NCBI GenBank assembly: GCA_022113835.1
Contig: JAILWY010000009.1
Location: 781,501 to 845,500 of the forward strand
Reading direction: 5' to 3'
DNA from: Atopsyche davidsoni
Taxonomy: Eukaryota > Arthropoda > Insecta > Trichoptera > Hydrobiosidae
DNA length: 64,000 bases
In this document: one piece after another, positions 7,812-58,169 of the stretch
How the letters are laid out: every line of letters begins with the position of its first letter
Numbering within the stretch: the stretch's first letter is position 1
The notes under the pieces: model-generated
Seen by the model: the letters and a program-made list of their open reading frames with translations, nothing else
The model's database searches: none
What the model was told of the DNA's origin: nothing
Made by a program: the position numbers and the translations under genes

Positions 7812-7935
7812 TGTAACAACAAGGGACAAGGCATTTGTCATGCATCTGATGATGACCCAGTGTATTGGGTCGAAACTAGTAATGCAAAATTTTTAATAAG
7901 ACAAAATACAAAGGTACTTTTATCATTAATGGAAC
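7812..7935 (+). mobile_element. hammerhead-bearing retroposon, family A, copy 1
   Basis: A short inverted stub of the family tail (GGGACAAGGCATTTG, about 7823-7837) is followed by the ribozyme motif at 7841-7886 and then by the tail, with ...AAGGTACTTTTATCATTA. The same unit occurs near 16.8, 25.4, 30.7 and 44.5 kb. Boundaries are approximate because I found no clear target duplication for this copy. Confidence 0.65.
7841..7886 (+). ncRNA. predicted hammerhead ribozyme (family A)
   Basis: The order is stem I strand TGCAT, core CTGATGA, stem II GACCCA-GTGTAT-TGGGTC (6 bp), core GAAA, stem III nucleotides C-TA-G, cleavage triplet GTA, and stem I return ATGCA (5 bp). One extra T sits between the CTGATGA core and stem II; an extra core nucleotide beside helix II is known in a natural viroid hammerhead. 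ACTAGT, which spans stem III, is palindromic, so two copies could form the dimeric hammerhead described for Penelope-like elements. Activity is untested and is inferred from fold and core identity. Confidence 0.65.
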
Positions 7936-8194: not shown

Positions 8195-8740
8195 ATGATT
8201 AAGTACATTTTTTCAAATATTGAAGATTTATTAAAGAAATTCTTTTTTCTAAGAGTTTCTTCATCAATCAATCAAACTTGTATAGGCAAAATCGTACTCC
8301 CTGTGAGACGGTCTTCACAAAAATCAATAATATATTTAACAGGTGCGTGTATTTACTTAATTAAATAAACTTTTAAAAATAATAATATCCAGATCGGATT
8401 TAAATGCTTCACTCAGTACTTTGTGTTAAAATTCTAGTATTGCAAGTCACACATTATTTAATTGTTATATGAAGTACGTTGTTTCATTTATAGGATATGA
8501 TTGTTAAAAATTCTTGCTTAGTACCAGTGATTCGTTAGTATAATTGGTAATGCACCGGCCACGTAAGCTTGGAGATGTGGGTTTCGAATCCCACTCAAAT
8601 CACGATGATATTTTTCTAAGAGTTCCTTTAATCAATTTTCAATATTTGAAAAAATGTACTTAATCATTATCAATCAATCAAACTTGTATAGGCAAAATCG
8701 TACTTCCTGTGAGACAGTCTTCACAAAGATCAATAATATA
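8195..8740 (+). mobile_element. composite tRNA-headed SINE-like element
   Basis: A tRNA-like head (8527-8603) is embedded between two copies of a body sequence. One 72-bp segment is directly repeated (8263-8334 and 8669-8740, a few differences). A 29-bp segment at 8195-8223 is perfectly inverted at 8639-8667. A related copy in the opposite orientation lies at about 49200-49500. The arrangement suggests a nested or rearranged SINE family. No protein is encoded. Confidence 0.55.
8527..8603 (+). other. tRNA-like SINE head
   Basis: GTGATTC at the start pairs with AAATCAC at the end (6 of 7). A D-arm-like A box (TTAGTATAATTGGTAATG) and a B box GGTTTCGAATCC inside a T-arm (GTGGG..CCCAC) are present. 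The anticodon arm pairs poorly, the position normally occupied by U33 is A, and the T loop has one extra base. I therefore read it as a Pol III promoter head of a SINE, not a working tRNA. Confidence 0.6.
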
Positions 8741-14619: not shown

Positions 14620-16742
14620 CAGGTTTCATTGGTATTTTTGTTTATAATTGCACATTTTATTTAAAATATTTATGAATTCGTTTGCGTCCCCTAGAACGTT
14701 TTTAATTTTTTTTGCATTTAAAATTAAGTTTTCTAAATTTTACTTAAATCTGAAATTGACGCAAAAAGTTTGTTTTTTTAAATATTTTAATAGGATAATT
14801 ATAAATAATGAAAGCTTTAATACTATGATAGCTTCAAATACTCTCGACTCGGTGGTTTGTATGATTATGAGATTTATATTTGTATTTACATTTCTGTCAT
14901 TTTTAACACAGAGTTATTTATAAAAAACTATTTGAACTTCAAACGCGTTTTATTGAAAATGTATTGACCATTAACCGTTTATAATAAAATAAACATTAAG
15001 AACGACCATTGAATTGAAATAACATTTCAACTTTTAAACATAATTATTTAATATCTCGCCATGTGCCACGAGTGTGAGAGCGCAGTGTTAGAGGTTCTGA
15101 AAATGACACAAAAATCTGTTACTGCGCAAGGCTCTAGGACTGGCATTGCCGTGCAGGAGGTCTCAACCTTTTTCCAATCTAGTAAATATTTTGTTAACTA
15201 TTGTTTATTGTACAATCGACCAGGCATACCTGTATTTGATTTAATACACAAGTGATTATTTTTATATTGTTAGTTTAAACAACATGGCAATAGTAGAAAT
15301 AAAAGTTAAAAATTATAAAACTCAAAGAGGAATGCTTGATTCAATATGTGCCTATAATTTAGATAGAATAAACACATGTTTTATATCGAGAATTTAACGT
15401 ACTTTTATTTTGGGTGGCAAAACAAATGCGAGTAAATGATAATAAAAATAGAAGTTCATTCATAATTCAATTAAAATAAGTCAAACTTTATGAAAATACA
15501 AGTTCATTTAAAATAATACCGAATTTTTGATAGAAAGGACAAAAAATATAATTGTTTACATTAAAAATAAATTATATTAGTACTGTGAATTCACTCATAA
15601 ATTAATTTTCGAATATTTAATCTTTACAATTGTTAAGTAATGTTAAACAATTTTTTTTCCATGACTAGTTCCAGTTAACAGATACTCAATCACATAATAT
15701 CGATTGATACAGTTAGAGTTCTGGGACTTATTTGTTTTTAAAGGTAGCCTTAATATATCCCAAAAAACATTTTGGTAGTACAATTAGTATCAAATATAAT
15801 TTGGGAAAAGTAAATTTATTTCTATTAAAACAGTTACGTTTCATAACGATAGGAGAAAACCATTTTTTGAAATGTTAATATTTTGTTATGGGTCAAAATA
15901 TAAATAATTAGAATCTATTAAAATAACGATAAACATTGAAAGACCCCTGGCTGACTGGAGATGTGGAGCCGCGCTGGTTGCAGGTATGACAGTGGAAGAA
16001 TCGAAGGAATTAGCAAAGATGGATGAGGCCGCTCGGGATGAGTGCCTCTGCCAGGGCCGCACTGCCCCGCACGACAATAGGTGATGGATATAAATTATCA
16101 AATATATTGAAATATATACTTAAATCCTATCTTATTTTTTCACGCATAAATGAAAGAGTTTAGAGAGATACAAACACTTCTTAAATGTAAATCCAACCAT
16201 ATGATTTGGCACTGCATAAGCAATTCTTTATAATGTGTATTTTCGTAGATGACGAGTCATCGGACGATTCGGTATTGGTACTAGGACCATCTTTAATTTT
16301 GAATAAGGTTTATAGATTAACAACCTACAGTCAATATTAAAAAAATATTTATTAAATACATACGTTACTTTTGGTATTAATACAATGAGTCGAAAAATTG
16401 GCTATTAAAGCAATTTATTTTTGTGTGTTTACTATATATATATATATTTCTTAGTTCGCCTCTAGTCATCCATTTCGGCAGTATGGCGTATGGGATAGAT
16501 ATCCCATTATAGGCAGGGCCGAGACAGGAGATGATCGGCGGATAGGCGCGGATTCCCGGAATCACGGTCGAGGTTTAGCTCTACCTGGCAGGAGTCAACT
16601 TCAGCAGTCCACACCGCCCGAGCAGCGTCACGACTACCAATCCACCCACTCAGTCATTTGTACTGGGGCTGAAGATCAGTCACGCATCAACTGTCAACGA
16701 GCAGTCAGCGAATCAGCGGCTTGATGTTTTGTTATTACTCAT
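14620..16742. other. AT-rich intergenic DNA
   Basis: No element boundary or firm gene seen. A possible internal exon at 15943-16080 is listed separately, and a GC-richer patch at 16450-16720 holds no supportable exon. Confidence 0.45.
15943..16080 (+). CDS. possible isolated internal exon, unidentified
   Basis: A GC-richer block bounded by AAAG (possible acceptor at 15941-15942) and AATAG|GTGATG (possible donor at 16081) stays open for 45 codons. It includes MTVEESKELAKMDEAARDEC, which looks like a helix-rich protein segment. No polypyrimidine tract precedes it, neighbouring exons are not visible and 45 open codons can occur by chance. I do not recognise the protein. Confidence 0.15.
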
Positions 16743-16920
16743 GATAAATAAGATAACTTTTAAAATTAAACTGGTTTAATTTTGCATCTGATGATGACCA
16801 GGTGAATGGTCGAAACCAGTCATGCGATAAATCAAATAAAACTCACGTGAAGCATTTAGTAATCTTATTTATCATGAATATGGATCTTCACCAAACTAAT
16901 GCCTTGTCCCTAAACAAAAT
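16743..16920 (+). mobile_element. hammerhead-bearing retroposon, family A, copy 2, with 13-bp target duplication
   Basis: TGTTATTACTCAT occurs at 16730-16742 and again at 16921-16933, directly flanking the 178-bp unit. The unit holds a hammerhead motif (16783-16826) and the family tail ending ATGCCTTGTCCCTAAAC. GATAAATAAGAT near the start is inverted near the end (ATCTTATTTATC), a fold-back arrangement. The perfect 13-bp duplication marks it as an integrated unit and fits target-primed reverse transcription. Confidence 0.8.
16783..16826 (+). ncRNA. predicted hammerhead ribozyme with covarying stem II
   Basis: CTGATGA and GAAA cores are intact. Stem II is GACCA-GGTGAA-TGGTC, one base pair shorter than the 6-bp stem in other copies. 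Both arms lost a base, so pairing is kept. Stem I is TGCAT/ATGCG (last pair G-U) and the cleavage triplet is the canonical GTC. The symmetrical change between copies is the best evidence here that the fold was selected. Confidence 0.7.
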
Positions 16921-16933
16921 TGTTATTACTCAT

Positions 16934-22901: not shown

Positions 22902-23119
22902 AATATTTTTGAATAAAATACTTGAGTGATTTTCCACATTTTTATTTTTATTAGTGACCGGTTTCGCCAACCTTTTACTCTGTTTGATAATGCCAACGTG
23001 AAAGGTTGGCGAAATCGGTCACTAATAAAAATAAAAATGTGGTAAATCACTCAAGTATTTTATTCAAAAATATTAAAATGGAATTCCACCAAGTACTCTC
23101 TGTCAAAAATATTGAATTT
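22902..23119 (+). mobile_element. family B retroposon, copy 3, head-to-head with 12-bp target duplication
   Basis: CTATAAATAACT at 22890-22901 is repeated at 23120-23131. Between them a left arm in reverse orientation (TACTTGAGTGATTTTCCACA...GTGACCGGTTTCGCCAACC) meets a forward copy with TTGATAA, stem II GCCAAC/GTTGGC and a GAAAT core, then the right end AGTACTCTCTGTCAAAAATA. The two arms are inverted repeats, so the whole element is a fold-back integrated as one unit. Confidence 0.8.
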
Positions 23120-25302: not shown

Positions 25303-25402
25303 TAAATACTCAAACTTGTTGAGGGACAAGGCATTTATCCATTATTATAATGATAAAAGTACCTTTGTATTTTATCTTCACTTTGAGTTTATTAAAATTA
25401 TT

Positions 25403-25448
25403 TGCATTACTAGTTTCGACCCAATACTCTGGGTCATCATTAGATGCA
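25403..25448 (-). ncRNA. hammerhead motif with a core mutation
   Basis: On the minus strand the core reads CTAATGA instead of CTGATGA, a change at the invariant G5 that should abolish cleavage. Stem II GACCCA/TGGGTC, GAAA, palindromic ACTAGT and stem I remain. Confidence 0.6.
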
Positions 25449-25474
25449 TAACTAAACATGCATAAGTTTAGTTA

Positions 25475-25520
25475 TGCATCTGATGATGACCCAGTGTATT
25501 GGGTCGAAACTAGTAATGCA
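25475..25520 (+). ncRNA. predicted hammerhead ribozyme (family A)
   Basis: Identical to the motif at 7841-7886: TGCAT, CTGATGA, an extra T, a 6-bp stem II with loop GTGTAT, GAAA, palindromic ACTAGT, triplet GTA and ATGCA. It is paired head-to-head with the mutated copy at 25403-25448. Confidence 0.65.
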
Positions 25521-25904
25521 AATAATTTTAATAAACTCAAAGTGAAGACAAAACACAAAGGGACTTTTATCATTATAAATACTCAATTGTTAACAAATCC
25601 TGGAGCCATGGTAATATACTAAATGTCCATTAAACAATATTGCATGACTTTTTTTACCATAGGTAAGTCTTATTTCCTCATTCATAATATTTTTTACTAC
25701 TTTAAAATTAATTATTAACTCTATATTTAAAAACTTTCATGAAAACAATACGGAAAAGATCCTTTCCAGTCATTTCAGTCAGTCTTTTTCTATGGAGAAA
25801 GCGCTCTAATATAAAATGTTTGCAACCTCTTAGCCGTAAGGCTTTTTGTGTTTATTTCATAAAATATTATTTAAACTGAAATCTATTTCATATTATTCTA
25901 CTTC

Positions 25905-29033: not shown

Positions 29034-29212
29034 TTCAATATTTTTGACAGAGAGTATTTGGTGGAATTCCATTATGATATTTTTTAATAAAATACTTGAG
29101 TGATTTTCCACATGTTCGTTTTTTATTTGTTACTGGTTTCGCCAACCTTTCACGTTGGCATTATCAAACAGAGTGAAAAACGAACATGTGGAAAATCACT
29201 GTAGTATTTTAT
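29034..29212 (-). mobile_element. family B retroposon, reverse orientation
   Basis: TTCAATATTTTTGACAGAGA starts the copy, followed by the right end, a reversed arm with GTTTCGCCAACCTTTCACG (the ribozyme-like centre), then the inverted arm GAACATGTGGAAAATCACTG. On the ribozyme strand it keeps TTGATAA, stem II and GAAAC. No clear target duplication. Confidence 0.7.
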
Positions 29213-29239
29213 TAAATTTCGGATTCTCAAACACAAAAA

Positions 29240-29941: not shown

Positions 29942-30679
29942 GTAAGTCTCTGATACTAATTTATTTACTAATAATCTTTACTTTATCATTTGTACGAGCA
30001 AAATTACTTCAGTTTGAAAATTTTACTCCACAATAATATGTTCTGATAGAAATATTTTCTTGTTCAGTACATTATCATTTTAATATACTTTGTATACCGT
30101 AAAATTTCAGTTAACAGCATTTTTTATTACAATAGTATCTCTATTTAAGTTATAATTAAATCATTAATATTATATTAATGTATTCTTCAAATGACTTTTT
30201 GTTACAATAATAAAATATTTTATATTATGATTACACATTTCACGAATGATAATCTACTATTAAGTGAGTAACAAATCTTCCAAATATGTTTGACTTAATA
30301 AATATTGTTAAATTTGAATTGACTTTATTTGTTTTTATTAGAGTTAACGCAGCTTAGATATATTTTTAATAACTTATAAATTGATATAAATATGACAATT
30401 TTCTCGTTTAACCTTATTTGTTTTCATGTATGGATGTTTTAATAGTTAGTAACTGTAACTATTCTATTTTGCTTATGCAGAGGGTTTTCTTATAAATTAT
30501 ACGAATTTTTGAAGAATATTTTTTATAGAATGGGCAATGTTTTATTTACTTAGTGAACTAAAACATAAAAATTATTTAATTAAATATATAAATTAAAATA
30601 GAATATTCTCCAACTCCCCCTCAATCGCAAATTTTAATCATATTAAATTTTAAATAATAATATATATATATTTTTTTTG

Positions 30680-30842
30680 TTGATGGACAAGGCATTTGAT
30701 TGGTGAAGTTCCATTATTATAATGATAAAAGTACCTTTGTGTTTTGTCTTCACTTTGAGTTTATTAAATTTTTTGCATTACTAGTTTCGACCAAATAGTA
30801 CAAAGTACATAGTACAATACAAAGGTACTTTTATCATTATAA
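30680..30842 (-). mobile_element. family A hammerhead retroposon remnant in ILP-1 intron 1
   Basis: GGACAAGGCATTTGATTGGT and TTTTGTCTTCACTTTGAGTT match the family A tail in reverse. The ribozyme half with ACTAGT, GAAA and part of stem II is present, but CTGATGA is missing. A short inverted piece AAAGGTACTTTTATCATTAT follows. It lies in the first intron of ILP-1, about 215 bp before the coding exon. Confidence 0.65.
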
Positions 30843-31058
30843 TAAATATTTTGACATGAAAAGATGCACAGACGATTTTACATTAATTAATAGTTTATAT
30901 TAAAAAACGGAAAAGAAACCACCAGTTCTAACAGCGGTCGCCAGAACCTGCAAAAACATCAACTGAAGATTTTATTTTGGAGATTACCGAAACTCTAACA
31001 GAATCTTCACTCTAAAAGCTCTCAATCTAAGCACCAAAATGACTTCTGTAACCTCCAG

Positions 31059-42723: not shown

Positions 42724-44921
42724 ATGAAGCTGCTGTGGATCATGGGACTGGCTTGCCTGGCCGCGGCTGACGACTCGGTCGACCTGTTCCAGCAGCCCAA
42801 GAGAGACAGCCCGAAGCGCCTGTGCGGAAGCAACTTGGCTGACACGTTGTCGCTCGTCTGCAACGGAGTCTACAACCACCGGTACTCCAAGAAAGACGCG
42901 CCTTGTGAGTCTCAAACCCGCTATTCTGTAAATCAATAATGATTTCCCTCATATCTGAACTATTTTTATTTAAAAAATAATGGTTTTATATTACAAACAC
43001 AGCAAATATATTTGAATAATTTTTTAAATATTTTTTCAATATACATATGTAAATATTATTAGACCTTACATTACATGACTAGAAAACAAAAAAAAATAAA
43101 TAAAATAACAAATCAACATCTTTTTATATGAATATTTTAATTTGCTCAAAGTAACACTTGATATTTGTAGCCATAATTAATGTGTTTTTGGCATATACTT
43201 TAAAGTAATTCCGTTTATATATATTTTATATAATTTGATGATGATACTGTAAATGTTTTATTAAATTAATAACAACATTATTTAAGGCTTGTGCTTCACC
43301 AACCTATTAAAATAGACATACTTCATCTGTAGATTAGATTAAAAATGTACTTTTAAATATTAGCTGTCAAGTTTCATCAGTAATTTATATTTTTTCTTAA
43401 TAGTAAAATACAATATATTGTTAAAACAAACTTTTCCGATGTGTTATACTAAATATATAAATCATTTGATTTTTAAGTAATTTAGTCCATATTTTCAGGA
43501 CTTGCTCTCTTATAGTGTGGTCCTTAGCTTTTATAGAGGTATTAAGACTTCCCACTAAGTTTTTCGGAATGAAGATGTCTCTCATGCATGTATAAAAATA
43601 ATACTCAAATTAATTTTGAAGTGCTAATAAATCTCCACAGATGGCGTTAATCATATAAATATAAAGATTATTAAAATAATCAATATTTTTGACAGAAAGA
43701 ATTTGGGGGAATTTCATTTTTATATTTTAAATATCACTCAGTTTGATATTGCCAACGTGAAAGGTTGGCGAAACCGGTCACAAATAAAAATTAACATTTG
43801 GAAAAATCACTCAAGTATTTAATTTAAAATATTATATAGATTATTAATAGAAAATACCGAATGTGGCTACTTTTAATGAAACAATTTTGATTTGATAAAA
43901 TTCAATCTGTGAGTAAAGATATTTTTAGATCCGTTCTATCAGTTATATTTTTTTAATACCAGTTTCTGTTTAAAATTATCATTTAAACTGTTTTTTAGAA
44001 TTTTATGCAGCGTTTATTCTTTATAGCTGCGACGTTTCGCTTCCGGTACCGTGACCATCATGAGAGACTTAATACAGATTCTAATTTTTAAAGTATCTGG
44101 ACCAAAATGTTGGAACGTTTATTAAAAAATTTACTTAAGATCCTTGAACGCAGTATTCGTAACGATGTTAAGAAAAACACAATTTTCTTAACGCAATATT
44201 TTTCATCTCTTCTATTGAGCGATGTTTAGTTTTCGGCCTACAATAACTTGGACCCTAAATAATAGACATAGTATTTAAATATATGTAAAACAATACCATT
44301 GTATTTTAACGATATTTTTTTAAAGTAAAAATATAAATTATCAAATGCATTATTTAATTAGAAATTTACCGACAAAAATCCTTAAAGATGATCTTAGCAA
44401 AAATATTTAAAACTTTAAACAGCTTATTATTTTTGTTGAGGGACAAGGCATTTGATTCGTGAAGATCCATTATTATAATGATAAAAGTACGTTTGTATTT
44501 TGTCTTCACTTTGAGTTTATTAAAAAAAATTACATTACTAGTTTCGACCCAATACACCGGGTCATCATCAGATGCATAACTAAACTAAACAGTGTATTGG
44601 GTCGAAACCAGTAATTCAAATAATTTTAATAAACTCAAAGTGAAGACAAAATGTAAAGGTACTTTTTATTATTTATTTTTTTGCTTAACACTAACAATTC
44701 ATCTAAAATACATTGTCTGTTTATCAGTTGATGGCATGGCAGTTGGAGACTACGCCTACGACAGCGACTATAGCGGTTGGCCCATGCTGACTCGCGAAGA
44801 GGCTTCCGCGCTGTCTGGAGGCCTCCATCGGCGGTTCCGCAGGGGGCGTCATGGCGTCTACGACGAGTGCTGCCTGAAGCCGTGCTCCCTGGATGAAATG
44901 CGCACTTACTGTGGTCAATAG
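42724..44921 (+). CDS. insulin-like peptide precursor 3
   Basis: Coding exons 42724-42904 and 44728-44921 are joined in phase 1 over an 1823-bp intron (donor T|GTGAGT, acceptor TTTATCAG) to give 124 residues. The signal peptide is MKLLWIMGLACLAAA. LFQQPKRDSPKR precedes the B chain CGSNLADTLSLVC (C34, C46). B/C junction SKK. C-peptide GDYAYDSDYSGWPMLTREE is acidic like ILP-1's. The furin-type site RRFRR (95-99) is followed by GRH and then the A chain GVYDECCLKPC...YCGQ (CC-x3-C-x8-C). ILP-1 and ILP-3 are the closest pair: equal length, shared LFQxPKR, SLVC and FRRG. The extra GRH gives the A chain an extended N-terminus unless trimmed. Intron 2 has gained a family B and a family A retroposon. 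Confidence 0.95.
43675..43837 (+). mobile_element. family B retroposon in ILP-3 intron 2
   Basis: AGATTATTAA at 43665-43674 recurs at 43838-43847, a likely 10-bp target duplication though AT-rich. The reversed right end (ATATTTTTGACAGAAAGAAT) is joined to a forward centre with TTGATATT, stem II GCCAAC/GTTGGC, GAAAC and ACCGGTC. Confidence 0.7.
44433..44665. mobile_element. family A hammerhead retroposon in ILP-3 intron 2, head-to-head
   Basis: TTATTATTT at 44424-44432 and 44666-44674 probably flanks the insert. A reverse copy with an intact hammerhead motif (44531-44576) meets a forward copy that has lost CTGATGA and begins CAGTGTATTGGGTCGAAACC. The insert ends about 54 bp before the exon that encodes the A chain, so it may overlap the branch-point region. 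Confidence 0.75.
44531..44576 (-). ncRNA. predicted hammerhead ribozyme in ILP-3 intron 2
   Basis: On the minus strand: TGCAT, CTGATGA, T, GACCCG-GTGTAT-TGGGTC (last pair G-U), GAAA, palindromic ACTAGT, GTA and ATGTA. The core is intact and stem I has one G-to-A change that weakens it. It is antisense to the ILP-3 transcript, so it would not cleave the ILP-3 pre-mRNA. Confidence 0.6.
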
Positions 44922-48400: not shown

Positions 48401-49190
48401 CTGTTATCGCTACGTTTGCGAATGCATGTTGCAAGACATGACCCATGTGGAAAACATTAGCCGTGAATGGGTAAATTAGCCGCTACTGACTTCCCAGTCA
48501 ACATAAAATAGACCAAGTATGATAGTTTTAGTCAAAACTGTTCGTCAACATGAACAATGGTACTAAAACGCTATTTTATCTTAAAAGTACTGTGGTAAGT
48601 TATTTAGTAATACGAGTCCACGAGGTCCTTCAAAGACATCAATAATGGTACATACAAAGTATATAAATATATATATACGAATATTTAAATGAAATGAAAG
48701 ATATACCAAGACAACTGCAGTCTTGGAGTGTTTGCAACGCGCCCTGGTAAGCCCCGTTGCAGCCTCGGGAGGCTTGCGGGTCTCGTGGCGCAGGCGCCGC
48801 GCGGACTTAGCGCAATATCTCAGCGCGCCCGCTCTAAGCCCCGCGTCTCTATCTGTCCTGGTAATAATACAATATTTCTTCGGTAATATGTATCTCGGGC
48901 ACGAGCTGTATGGCGAGGGACCAAACTGGAGCCTGGAGCCAGCAAACTTACGAATTCTTTTTTCGTGAAAAGCTTTTTACTATACAACTTTAGAAATTCA
49001 TTGACAATTGTTTGAAACCGAAAATATAAAAAAAACTGTATACTTCCCTCCCTGTATGTTTAATAATGGCATGTTAAAATAAAAAAATATTTTATAATGA
49101 TATGTTACTATTTTACTTTGTTAAATATCTTGAAATAAAAAAAAAATTCTTACTGGAATTTTTGTTCACTTGAAAACATATTAAGTACTT
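45442..49190. other. intergenic DNA, no gene recognised
   Basis: AT-rich. GC-richer patches at 45590-45715, 46560-46670 and 48730-48850. No exon with convincing splice sites. Confidence 0.5.
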
Positions 49191-49194
49191 GTTT

Positions 49195-49510
49195 TCAAAT
49201 ATTGAAAAATGATTAAAGAAACTCTCAGAAAAATATCATCATGATTTGATACTTATTATGCCAATCAAATATTGTGTGACTTGCAATACTAGACTTTTAA
49301 TCCAAAGTACTGAGTGAAGCATTTAAATCCGATCTGGATATTATTAGTTTTAAAGTCTATTTAATTAAGCCAATACACGCATTTGTTAAATATATTATAG
49401 ATTTTTTGTGAAGACCGTCTCACAGGAAGTACGATTTTGCCTATACAGGTTTTATTGATTGATAATGATTAAGTACATTTTTTCAAATATTGATAAATTA
49501 TTAAAGAATT
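49195..49510 (-). mobile_element. SINE-like element related to the copy at 8.2-8.7 kb
   Basis: AAAGAAACTCTCAGAAAAAT, GAAGACCGTCTCACAGGAAG, and CCTATACAGG followed by TGATAATGATTAAGTACATT all match the 8195-8740 element in reverse orientation. A recognisable tRNA-like head is missing. TTTTCAAATATTGA occurs at both edges. Confidence 0.6.
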
Positions 49511-49519
49511 TTTAACATC

Positions 49520-56879: not shown

Positions 56880-57970
56880 GATGACTCATGGTATTCCGCT
56901 TATCTACTGTGATGGTGGCAGTGTCGGCTAAGTTCGTGAGTGTGGATGTCGTCAGAGCCGATGCCGAATGAATATTCATCGGCAACCCACGCGGGCCGGC
57001 GCCGCGGGTCCCTGCGACCTCGCCCCGCGACTCCAGACTCGACTGTATTACACTCGGAGCCCCCATGGGGTCTCCCTTCACAAAAAGGTCAAAGTTTCAT
57101 TGTGTGTAATACGCCCGTTAGGTAAACATAATAAGTGTAGATACAATTAATAATTCGGATACTCTAAAAGCAAATATATAACGTTTGTTATATAAATACT
57201 CGAAATCAAAAGCATAATTCTTTGATAATATAAATAATGAGTTACTGATAAATTTAAGTTTAAAAATGCGTTAGAAATACATTTTTAAAGATTAGGATCT
57301 TATTTATATTACCTTACAGCTAATAAATATTGATGGCATACTTATGAATAAATGAAAACTTAACTACTTCCATAATTTTCTATTGATAGATCGTGCAATT
57401 TGATGCAAATTGTTTAATTAAAAAATATACTTATAGCAACCAATAATATAATACAAGTTGGATATTTCAATGATTGATATTTTTTTTTACAAATAAGTAG
57501 ATTTTTTTTTTATTTATGTCAATAAATAATTTCTTTTCGTAAGTAGTTTATTTTGAAAGTTATTGAAAATATTACAATAATATATCATATATTTATTGTA
57601 ATATTTTTAATAACCTGAATAAAATGATTTAATTCTCATATATTATTTACTTGATGACTTTTCTTTCCAATTTAAAACTGCGGTGTAGAAGAACCCGGGA
57701 ACCCACTACACTATTTTCCCCTTAGAAAACCACGAACATTGGTTCAGCACGAGTATATGCTCAGTGAAATGGTCGCTAACCTCCACTGAGGAGAGGCATT
57801 TGATGAAGAAATAAACAATAAATATTATTTCAATTTTGGTTTGCAAAAATATCGTTAAAATAATATAGTCAGACTTTTGTTGTCAAATATATAAGCACGG
57901 TGATGATATATTATTTAATAAAATAATACCTGATAACTATAATAAAATCATTCGATCAAGATCTTATTAT
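56880..57970. other. intergenic DNA
   Basis: A GC-rich patch at 56930-57080. An inverted repeat (ATTACAATAAT...ATTGTAATATTTTTAATAAC) lies at about 57555-57615. No gene recognised. Confidence 0.45.
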
Positions 57971-57973
57971 TTA

Positions 57974-58169
57974 AATATTTTTGAGTAAAATACTTGAGTG
58001 ATTTTCCACATGTTCATTTTTATTTGTGACTCTGTTTGATAATGCCAACGCGATAGGTTGGCGAAACCGGTCACAAATAAAAACGAACATGTGGAAAATC
58101 ACTCATGTATTTTACTCAAAAATATTAGAAAGGAATTCCACCAAGTACTCTCTGTCAAAAATATTGAAT
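57974..58169 (+). mobile_element. family B retroposon, well-preserved fold-back with 13-bp target duplication
   Basis: ATCTTATTATTTA at 57961-57973 recurs at 58170-58182. The unit starts AATATTTTTGAGTAAAATAC, runs through a reversed arm to TTTGTGAC, meets the forward ribozyme-like centre (58036-58072), the inverse arm GAACATGTGGAAAATCACTC, and the right end AAGTACTCTCTGTCAAAAAT ATTGAAT. This is the best reference copy for family B. Confidence 0.85.
58036..58072 (+). ncRNA. hammerhead-like motif with U3-A8 core (family B)
   Basis: TTGATAA, an extra T, stem II GCCAAC-loop-GTTGGC (6 bp), GAAA, the palindrome ACCGGT and triplet GTC. Compared with the consensus CTGATGA, core position 3 is U and position 8 is A. 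Those two positions pair in the folded hammerhead, so the pair is kept as U-A. Stem I is short (TGT/ACA). Activity is uncertain. Confidence 0.5.

Follow-up and report, generated by a model that had tools for sequence, protein, structure and literature searches.

The window analysed here, the whole stretch of 64,000 nucleotides of Atopsyche davidsoni DNA, contains dispersed copies of a short repeat. This repeat is very probably a Penelope-like retrotransposon family, seen as short non-autonomous copies, with a minimal type I hammerhead in its pseudo-LTR (pLTR). The hammerhead motif is genuine, and it is of a type described before in Penelope-like retrotransposons rather than a new class of ribozyme. 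The preliminary description of this DNA was centred on the motif and its stem II; the Penelope-like context of inverted pseudo-LTRs was absent from it.

Hammerhead motifs and their copies

The hammerhead motifs are the following, each copy being named after its approximate position in the window:

16783..16826, plus strand: hammerhead motif of the divergent subfamily, with stem I UGCAU/AUGCG, a 5-bp stem II, ACCAGU and a predicted GUC cleavage triplet
7842..7885, plus strand: hammerhead motif of the main subfamily (GUA), in a rearranged copy
25476..25519, plus strand: intact hammerhead motif in the tail-less arm of the 25 kb element
25404..25447, minus strand: hammerhead motif with a broken core (CUAAUGA, G5 to A) in the tail-bearing arm of the 25 kb element
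44532..44575, minus strand: hammerhead motif of the 44 kb element (GUA)

The divergent motif reads U-GCAU-CUGAUGA-U-GACCA-GGUGAA-UGGUC-GAAA-CCAG-U-C-AUGC-G. The hammerhead core (CUGANGA, GAAA and UH, with stems I and II pairable) is present in the family, and is broken in one of the five copies. The three GUA copies at 7842-7885, 25476-25519 and 44532-44575 have CTGATGA, a stem II of GACCCR/UGGGUC and GAAA, and their letters are as given in the preliminary description. So are those of the 16 kb copy, with its stem II GACCA/UGGUC changed on both sides and its GUC triplet; this stem is one pair shorter than that of the other copies and has an A-U pair at its end. In the viroid CChMVd, an extra A lies between A9 and helix II. 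In every copy in the window, A9 and stem II are separated by an extra U. The CChMVd (+) hammerhead also carries one extra core nucleotide (PMC3705267), although it is an A rather than a U and belongs to a viroid.

A descriptor was written with a 4-bp stem I, CUGANGA, 0 or 1 extra base, a stem II of at least 4 bp, GAAA and UH, and with one pair closing a stem III or loop of 2-30 nt. On both strands of the window it has four matches, at 7846 (+), 16788 (+), 25480 (+) and 44571 (-), which, being copies of one repeat, amount to one or two independent occurrences rather than four. The same descriptor, whose extra-base option is fitted to the copies because it was written when these were already known, matches twice in 60 dinucleotide shuffles of the window. 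The string CTGATGA occurs 13 times in the window, with 4.69 occurrences expected, and none of 100 shuffles reached 13. In an alignment of five copies, all 53 countable stem cells pair. The descriptor counts and the pairing support the claim, made from the outset, that the dispersed copies have a hammerhead fold in common; their catalysis is predicted from sequence.

None of the Rfam hammerhead families matched the window, either at the gathering score or with E values up to 10. A plausible reason is the combination of a short stem I, a nearly missing helix III and the additional U that follows A9. On the 44 kb palindrome, two microRNA models of Rfam match, and nothing else does. A family profile search of the window recovered the elements described here; its best match outside them (E 0.0026) is at 29.1 kb, in another hairpin.

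Element anatomy and probable Penelope-like character

The motifs belong to larger units, which are delimited as follows:

16729..16742, no strand: left target-site duplication TTGTTATTACTCAT of the 16 kb element, an exact 14-bp direct repeat
16743..16771, minus strand: left inverted arm of the 16 kb element, with an internal deletion and without its hammerhead, which this arm has lost
16774..16879, plus strand: right arm of the 16 kb element, with leader GTTTAATTTTGCAT, hammerhead and spacer
16880..16919, plus strand: Penelope-type tail ATGGATCTTCACCAAACTAATGCCTTGTCCCTAAACAAAA, matching the 44 kb tail in 36 of 40 positions
16920..16933, no strand: right target-site duplication of the 16 kb element
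25303..25313, partner 25576-25586, no strand: target-site duplication TAAATACTCAA of the 25 kb element, 11 bp
25314..25575, minus strand: 25 kb element, with 113-nt arms 25345-25457 and 25466-25578, 96% complementary
30677..30845, minus strand: 30 kb element, ends approximate, with 30-nt arms 30714-30743 and 30816-30845 (97%)
44424..44432, partner 44666-44674, no strand: target-site duplication TTATTATTT of the 44 kb element, 9 bp, AT-rich and less certain
44433..44665, minus strand: 44 kb element, with 75-nt arms 44483-44557 and 44592-44666, 88% complementary

Four of the five copies (16, 25, 30 and 44 kb) are made up of a pair of inverted arms, and a tail is attached to one end but not to the other. 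In the 16 kb element, the inverted-repeat pairs are 16736-16758 with 16858-16880, and 16762-16771 with 16774-16783. The tail starts with ATGGA and ends in CCCTCAACAA or alike; it is 40 nt long at 16 kb, around 38 nt at 30 and 44 kb (about 44433-44470, minus strand, in the latter) and shortened to 29 nt at 25 kb, where it occupies the low end of the element (25314-25342, minus strand). The tail-less arm departs from the tail-bearing arm 0-12 nt upstream of ATGGA. The leader GTTTARTTWTGCAT precedes the core in the right arms of the 16 and 44 kb elements and in the tail-less arm of the 25 kb element, and both arms extend into it at 25 and 16 kb. The 30 kb element retains a 38-nt tail, and its hammerhead lacks the 5' half. 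A rearrangement marks the 7.8 kb copy, which has a short inverted piece of tail (about 7820-7837) directly to the left of the motif and no leader.

Three of the five copies are flanked by short direct repeats, read here as target-site duplications. With element boundaries set by eye beforehand, a repeat as long as the 14-bp one was found in 0 of 2000 random placements, as long as the 11-bp one in 6 of 2000, and as long as the 9-bp one in 16 of 2000; the last is shorter than the 10-nt limit of the repeat search. A clear duplication is missing at 30 kb (7 bp, 186 of 2000 placements) and at 7.8 kb (5 bp, 1181 of 2000).

In PMC3846280, PMC11167929 and PMC6155905, the signature of Penelope-like elements comprises inverted pseudo-LTRs, an optional tail of 30-40 nt, short target duplications and a minimal hammerhead. 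The copies in the window have inverted pLTRs with a one-ended tail and a minimal hammerhead in the pLTR near the predicted start of a reading frame. Pen2a_Av and other Penelope copies of the rotifer Adineta vaga (PMC3846280) likewise have inverted pLTRs of which one bears a tail (31 bp), with the first residues of the frame inside the pLTR and tail, and duplications of 8-10 bp that are missing from some copies. In the rotifer, a gene lies between the pLTRs, whereas here the two arms stand alone, head to head, and two of the duplications (11 and 14 bp) are longer than 8-10 bp. According to PMC6155905, hammerheads are in all available Penelope-like sequences, usually in minimal form and without helix III, and PMC8848866 presents Penelope families as abundant in a butterfly. 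In the titles and opening lines of abstracts that we surveyed, hammerheads were not reported in a lepidopteran genome; a paper on monarch butterfly transposons discusses Penelope elements, and the word "hammerhead" is absent from its main text. Hammerheads in Penelope elements are also the subject of a paper of 2014. Penelope-like target-site duplications longer than 8-10 bp also occur. Exact-pattern scans of the viral_contigs and genome_contigs collections gave 0 matches, and since these collections are viral and prokaryotic, this carries no evidence on insects.

No Penelope reverse transcriptase or GIY-YIG frame was seen, by eye, among the 11 frames of at least 120 aa in the window. A protein search with the 44 kb copy's right arm, in translation, as the query gave one candidate and none at E up to 10; it says little, as the database returned no homologue for an insulin-like exon of the window either and seems to lack coverage of this insect. 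The extra U creates CUGAUGAUG, and with it an AUG starting at A9; in the right arms at 16, 25 and 44 kb, the frame from this AUG stops before the tail. Another frame (SDDD...MDLHQSNALSLNK) is open from upstream of the motif through the spacer to the ATG of the tail, at 16774-16919, 25314-25455 (-) and 44433-44590 (-), the 25 kb version having the shortened tail. This open frame is possibly the start of a Penelope protein; the AUG at A9 or that of the tail may be the one that an autonomous element uses.

The same open frame is the main point in favour of the conserved block being protein-coding (...SDDDPVYWVETSNA...MDLHQSNALSLNK) and the hammerhead coincidental; Penelope reading frames also start near here (PMC11167929, PMC3846280). 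We consider such a coincidence very improbable: in the 16 kb copy, whose stems and core are kept, the motif is translated as another peptide (SDDDQVNGRNQS), stops interrupt the frame in the 30 kb remnant, the 7.8 kb copy departs from it after the motif, and a core, two stems and a cleavage triplet are unlikely to come together by chance. The rarity of descriptor matches in shuffled sequence also counts against a foldback or MITE-type DNA transposon with a chance hammerhead-like sequence. The 113-nt arms of the 25 kb element, 96% complementary, do resemble long terminal inverted repeats, but the flanking repeats vary from 9 to 14 bp, the two ends are unlike, only one having a tail, and the arms part beside a start codon; we give this origin the same very low likelihood.

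Slightly less remote, though still improbable, is a metazoan retrozyme, a kind of retroelement, non-autonomous and 170-400 nt long, whose hammerheads generate the circular RNA by which it spreads. The type I hammerhead, the low GC content and duplications of more than 4 bp would suit a retrozyme, and so would the one-pair helix III capped by the palindromic tetraloop CUAG, which recalls the type I hammerhead HHR_Amex1 of the axolotl (PMC7229834). That source also names insects among the hosts of retrozyme-like repeats. The published retrozymes are, however, tandem direct repeats that give rise to circles, whereas matches to the family in the window are single or inverted, with no tandem direct repeats of 150-450 bp, and the tail on one end is a signature of Penelope elements. 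The salamander motifs act as dimers with a palindromic tetraloop, also according to PMC7229834; the ACUAGU of the main subfamily is likewise self-complementary, while the ACCAGU of the 16 kb copy is not.

Several other features of the window were noted. An exon of an insulin-like peptide, with the A chain GVYDECCLKPCSLDEMRTYC, is located at about 44730-44918 (+) (Pfam Insulin, E 1.2e-06). Its best PDB match is the A chain of bombyxin-II (E 8.7e-05); bombyxin is a hormone of the silkworm. Taken alone, this exon points to a lepidopteran host, or at least to an insect. The 44 kb element is situated around 65 bp upstream of this exon, with its hammerhead on the opposite strand, and is probably in an intron. 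Strong hairpins at 22950-23026, 57970-58130 (-) and 29086-29214 (-), with sub-threshold Rfam matches to unrelated models, are possibly short inverted-repeat transposons. A tRNA-like match at 8529-8602 (+), with 31.5 bits and not called by ARAGORN, may be the head of a tRNA-derived SINE or a decayed tRNA. Another repeat family is formed by the inverted dispersed copies 8263-8400 and 49326-49463, 91% identical, with partial copies at 8618-8740 and 49180-49511.

Stem II, possible constraint and predicted folding

In the stem II of the 16 kb copy, pairing is kept and both sides are changed, which had been described as a compensatory change pointing to selection on the ribozyme. Kept pairing and altered sides stand, in one event in one copy; a clean two-sided compensatory substitution does not, as by its letters the change reads as one substitution plus a 2-nt deletion. 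In the cheapest register, 7 of the 45 columns differ between the 16 and 44 kb copies, with C replaced by A on the 5' arm, and the 2-nt deletion on the 3' side lets this A face a U. A symmetric deletion of one C-G pair is likewise not upheld, its register having 10 differing columns against 7. In the alignment of five copies, one-sided stem changes affect three pairs, each left as G-U or U-G. None of the 11 pairs is changed on both sides, a count that neither supports nor refutes the 16 kb stem II change, because the two 16 kb cells at issue are gapped and were set aside.

The 16 and 44 kb copies are alike at 38 of 45 positions in the hammerhead, 36 of 40 in the tail and 35 of 61 in the spacer. 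None of the 12 core positions differ between them, compared with 19 of the 54 ungapped spacer positions (p = 0.014); when the core is compared with the 33 remaining hammerhead columns, p = 0.16 for the cheapest register and 0.042 for one set by hand, all of these being post hoc tests on one pair of copies. The contrast of core and spacer is suggestive of constraint. The pairing of all countable stem cells, one-sided changes included, also favours selection. Against it count the p value of 0.16, the loss of G5 in the 25 kb minus-strand copy, that of the 5' half of the hammerhead in the 30 kb copy, and the hairpins that bury the motif in the 25 and 44 kb elements. The stem II change of a single divergent copy thus supports selection on the ribozyme weakly, and the earlier statement is upheld to that extent.

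When isolated motifs are folded, stems I and II form; the lowest-energy fold also pairs C3-U4-G5 and puts G12 in a U-G pair, but the energy model has no knowledge of the hammerhead core. In its entirety, the 25 kb element folds with -173.6 (minus strand) and -170.7 kcal/mol (plus strand), and with -111.3 and -106.5 kcal/mol when the hammerhead stems are enforced; for the whole 44 kb element, the values are -92.8 and -58.0 kcal/mol. A long hairpin that buries the motif is hence preferred over the hammerhead-constrained fold by 62-64 kcal/mol at 25 kb and by 35 kcal/mol at 44 kb, which speaks against activity of these copies. The gap is 4.3 kcal/mol for the 16 kb copy (6.4 with 100-nt flanks) and 3.0 kcal/mol for the 7.8 kb copy. 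If any copy cleaves, the energy model suggests that these two would be the likeliest to do so.

Proposed origin of the copies and significance

The movement of Penelope elements is, according to PMC11167929, little known. In that study, the purified protein of a Penelope-like element introduces nicks in both strands of its target and extends them; it starts reverse transcription at two sites that bound the tail, with the hammerhead just upstream. The element concerned, Poseidon of Anolis (PAc), resembles the copies in the window in having the hammerhead at the start of its frame, two reverse transcription start sites bounding the tail, and AT-rich targets. The reading frame of PAc starts with stem II, downstream of C3 and G8, and the AUG that begins at A9 in the window fits this arrangement. 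In the window, by contrast with PAc, the frame from A9 stops before the tail, no protein gene is seen, and the host is an insect, not a lizard.

From the anatomy of the copies and from PMC11167929, we infer an origin by two-sided target-primed reverse transcription, with the protein supplied by an autonomous Penelope partner. The protein would bind an RNA carrying the leader, the hammerhead, the spacer and the start of its reading frame, would nick both strands of an AT-rich target and would start two cDNAs, one just 5' of the AUG, giving the tail-less arm, and the other some 38-40 nt further on, giving the tail arm. Both cDNAs would extend back across the hammerhead in the direction of the leader GTTTARTTWTGCAT and then be joined, leaving two inverted arms, one tail and a target duplication of 9-14 bp. 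For palindromes of this sort, PMC3846280 favours self-priming on an antisense template, which may apply here too. Arm-to-arm identities (66/69 at 25 kb, 60/69 at 44 kb, and 62-64/69 between the 44 kb and 25 kb arms) do not clearly show that each palindrome arose at its own insertion.

The arms hold both sides of the predicted cleavage site, so the inserted copies derive from RNA that was uncut there. This agrees with PMC11167929, where cleavage was unnecessary for insertion in vitro. Cleavage in that system also required added protein and left no RNA-seq ends at the site, which counts against the main reading. The hammerhead, if catalytic as predicted, would most likely serve to trim read-through transcripts or tandem ones, acting perhaps as a dimer or aided by protein.

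A more far-reaching proposal, which we put forward as doubtful, is that the gene-less head-to-head pairs of pseudo-LTRs form a self-standing, trans-mobilised family of this insect lineage, each insertion being made afresh by two-sided priming, and that the hammerhead core, fused through its extra U to an AUG, acts as a switch. If this were true, hammerhead cleavage would behead the translation of the Penelope frame and would switch the RNA between making protein and serving as a template.

Compact copies in one 64 kb window thus show two apparent start sites, a tail, duplications and inverted arms, an anatomy that fits the 2024 in vitro study (PMC11167929). In the divergent copy, the spacer has drifted, but stems, core and tail are retained. 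For the biology of Penelope-like elements, these copies are of confirmatory value, and they offer a handle for tests.
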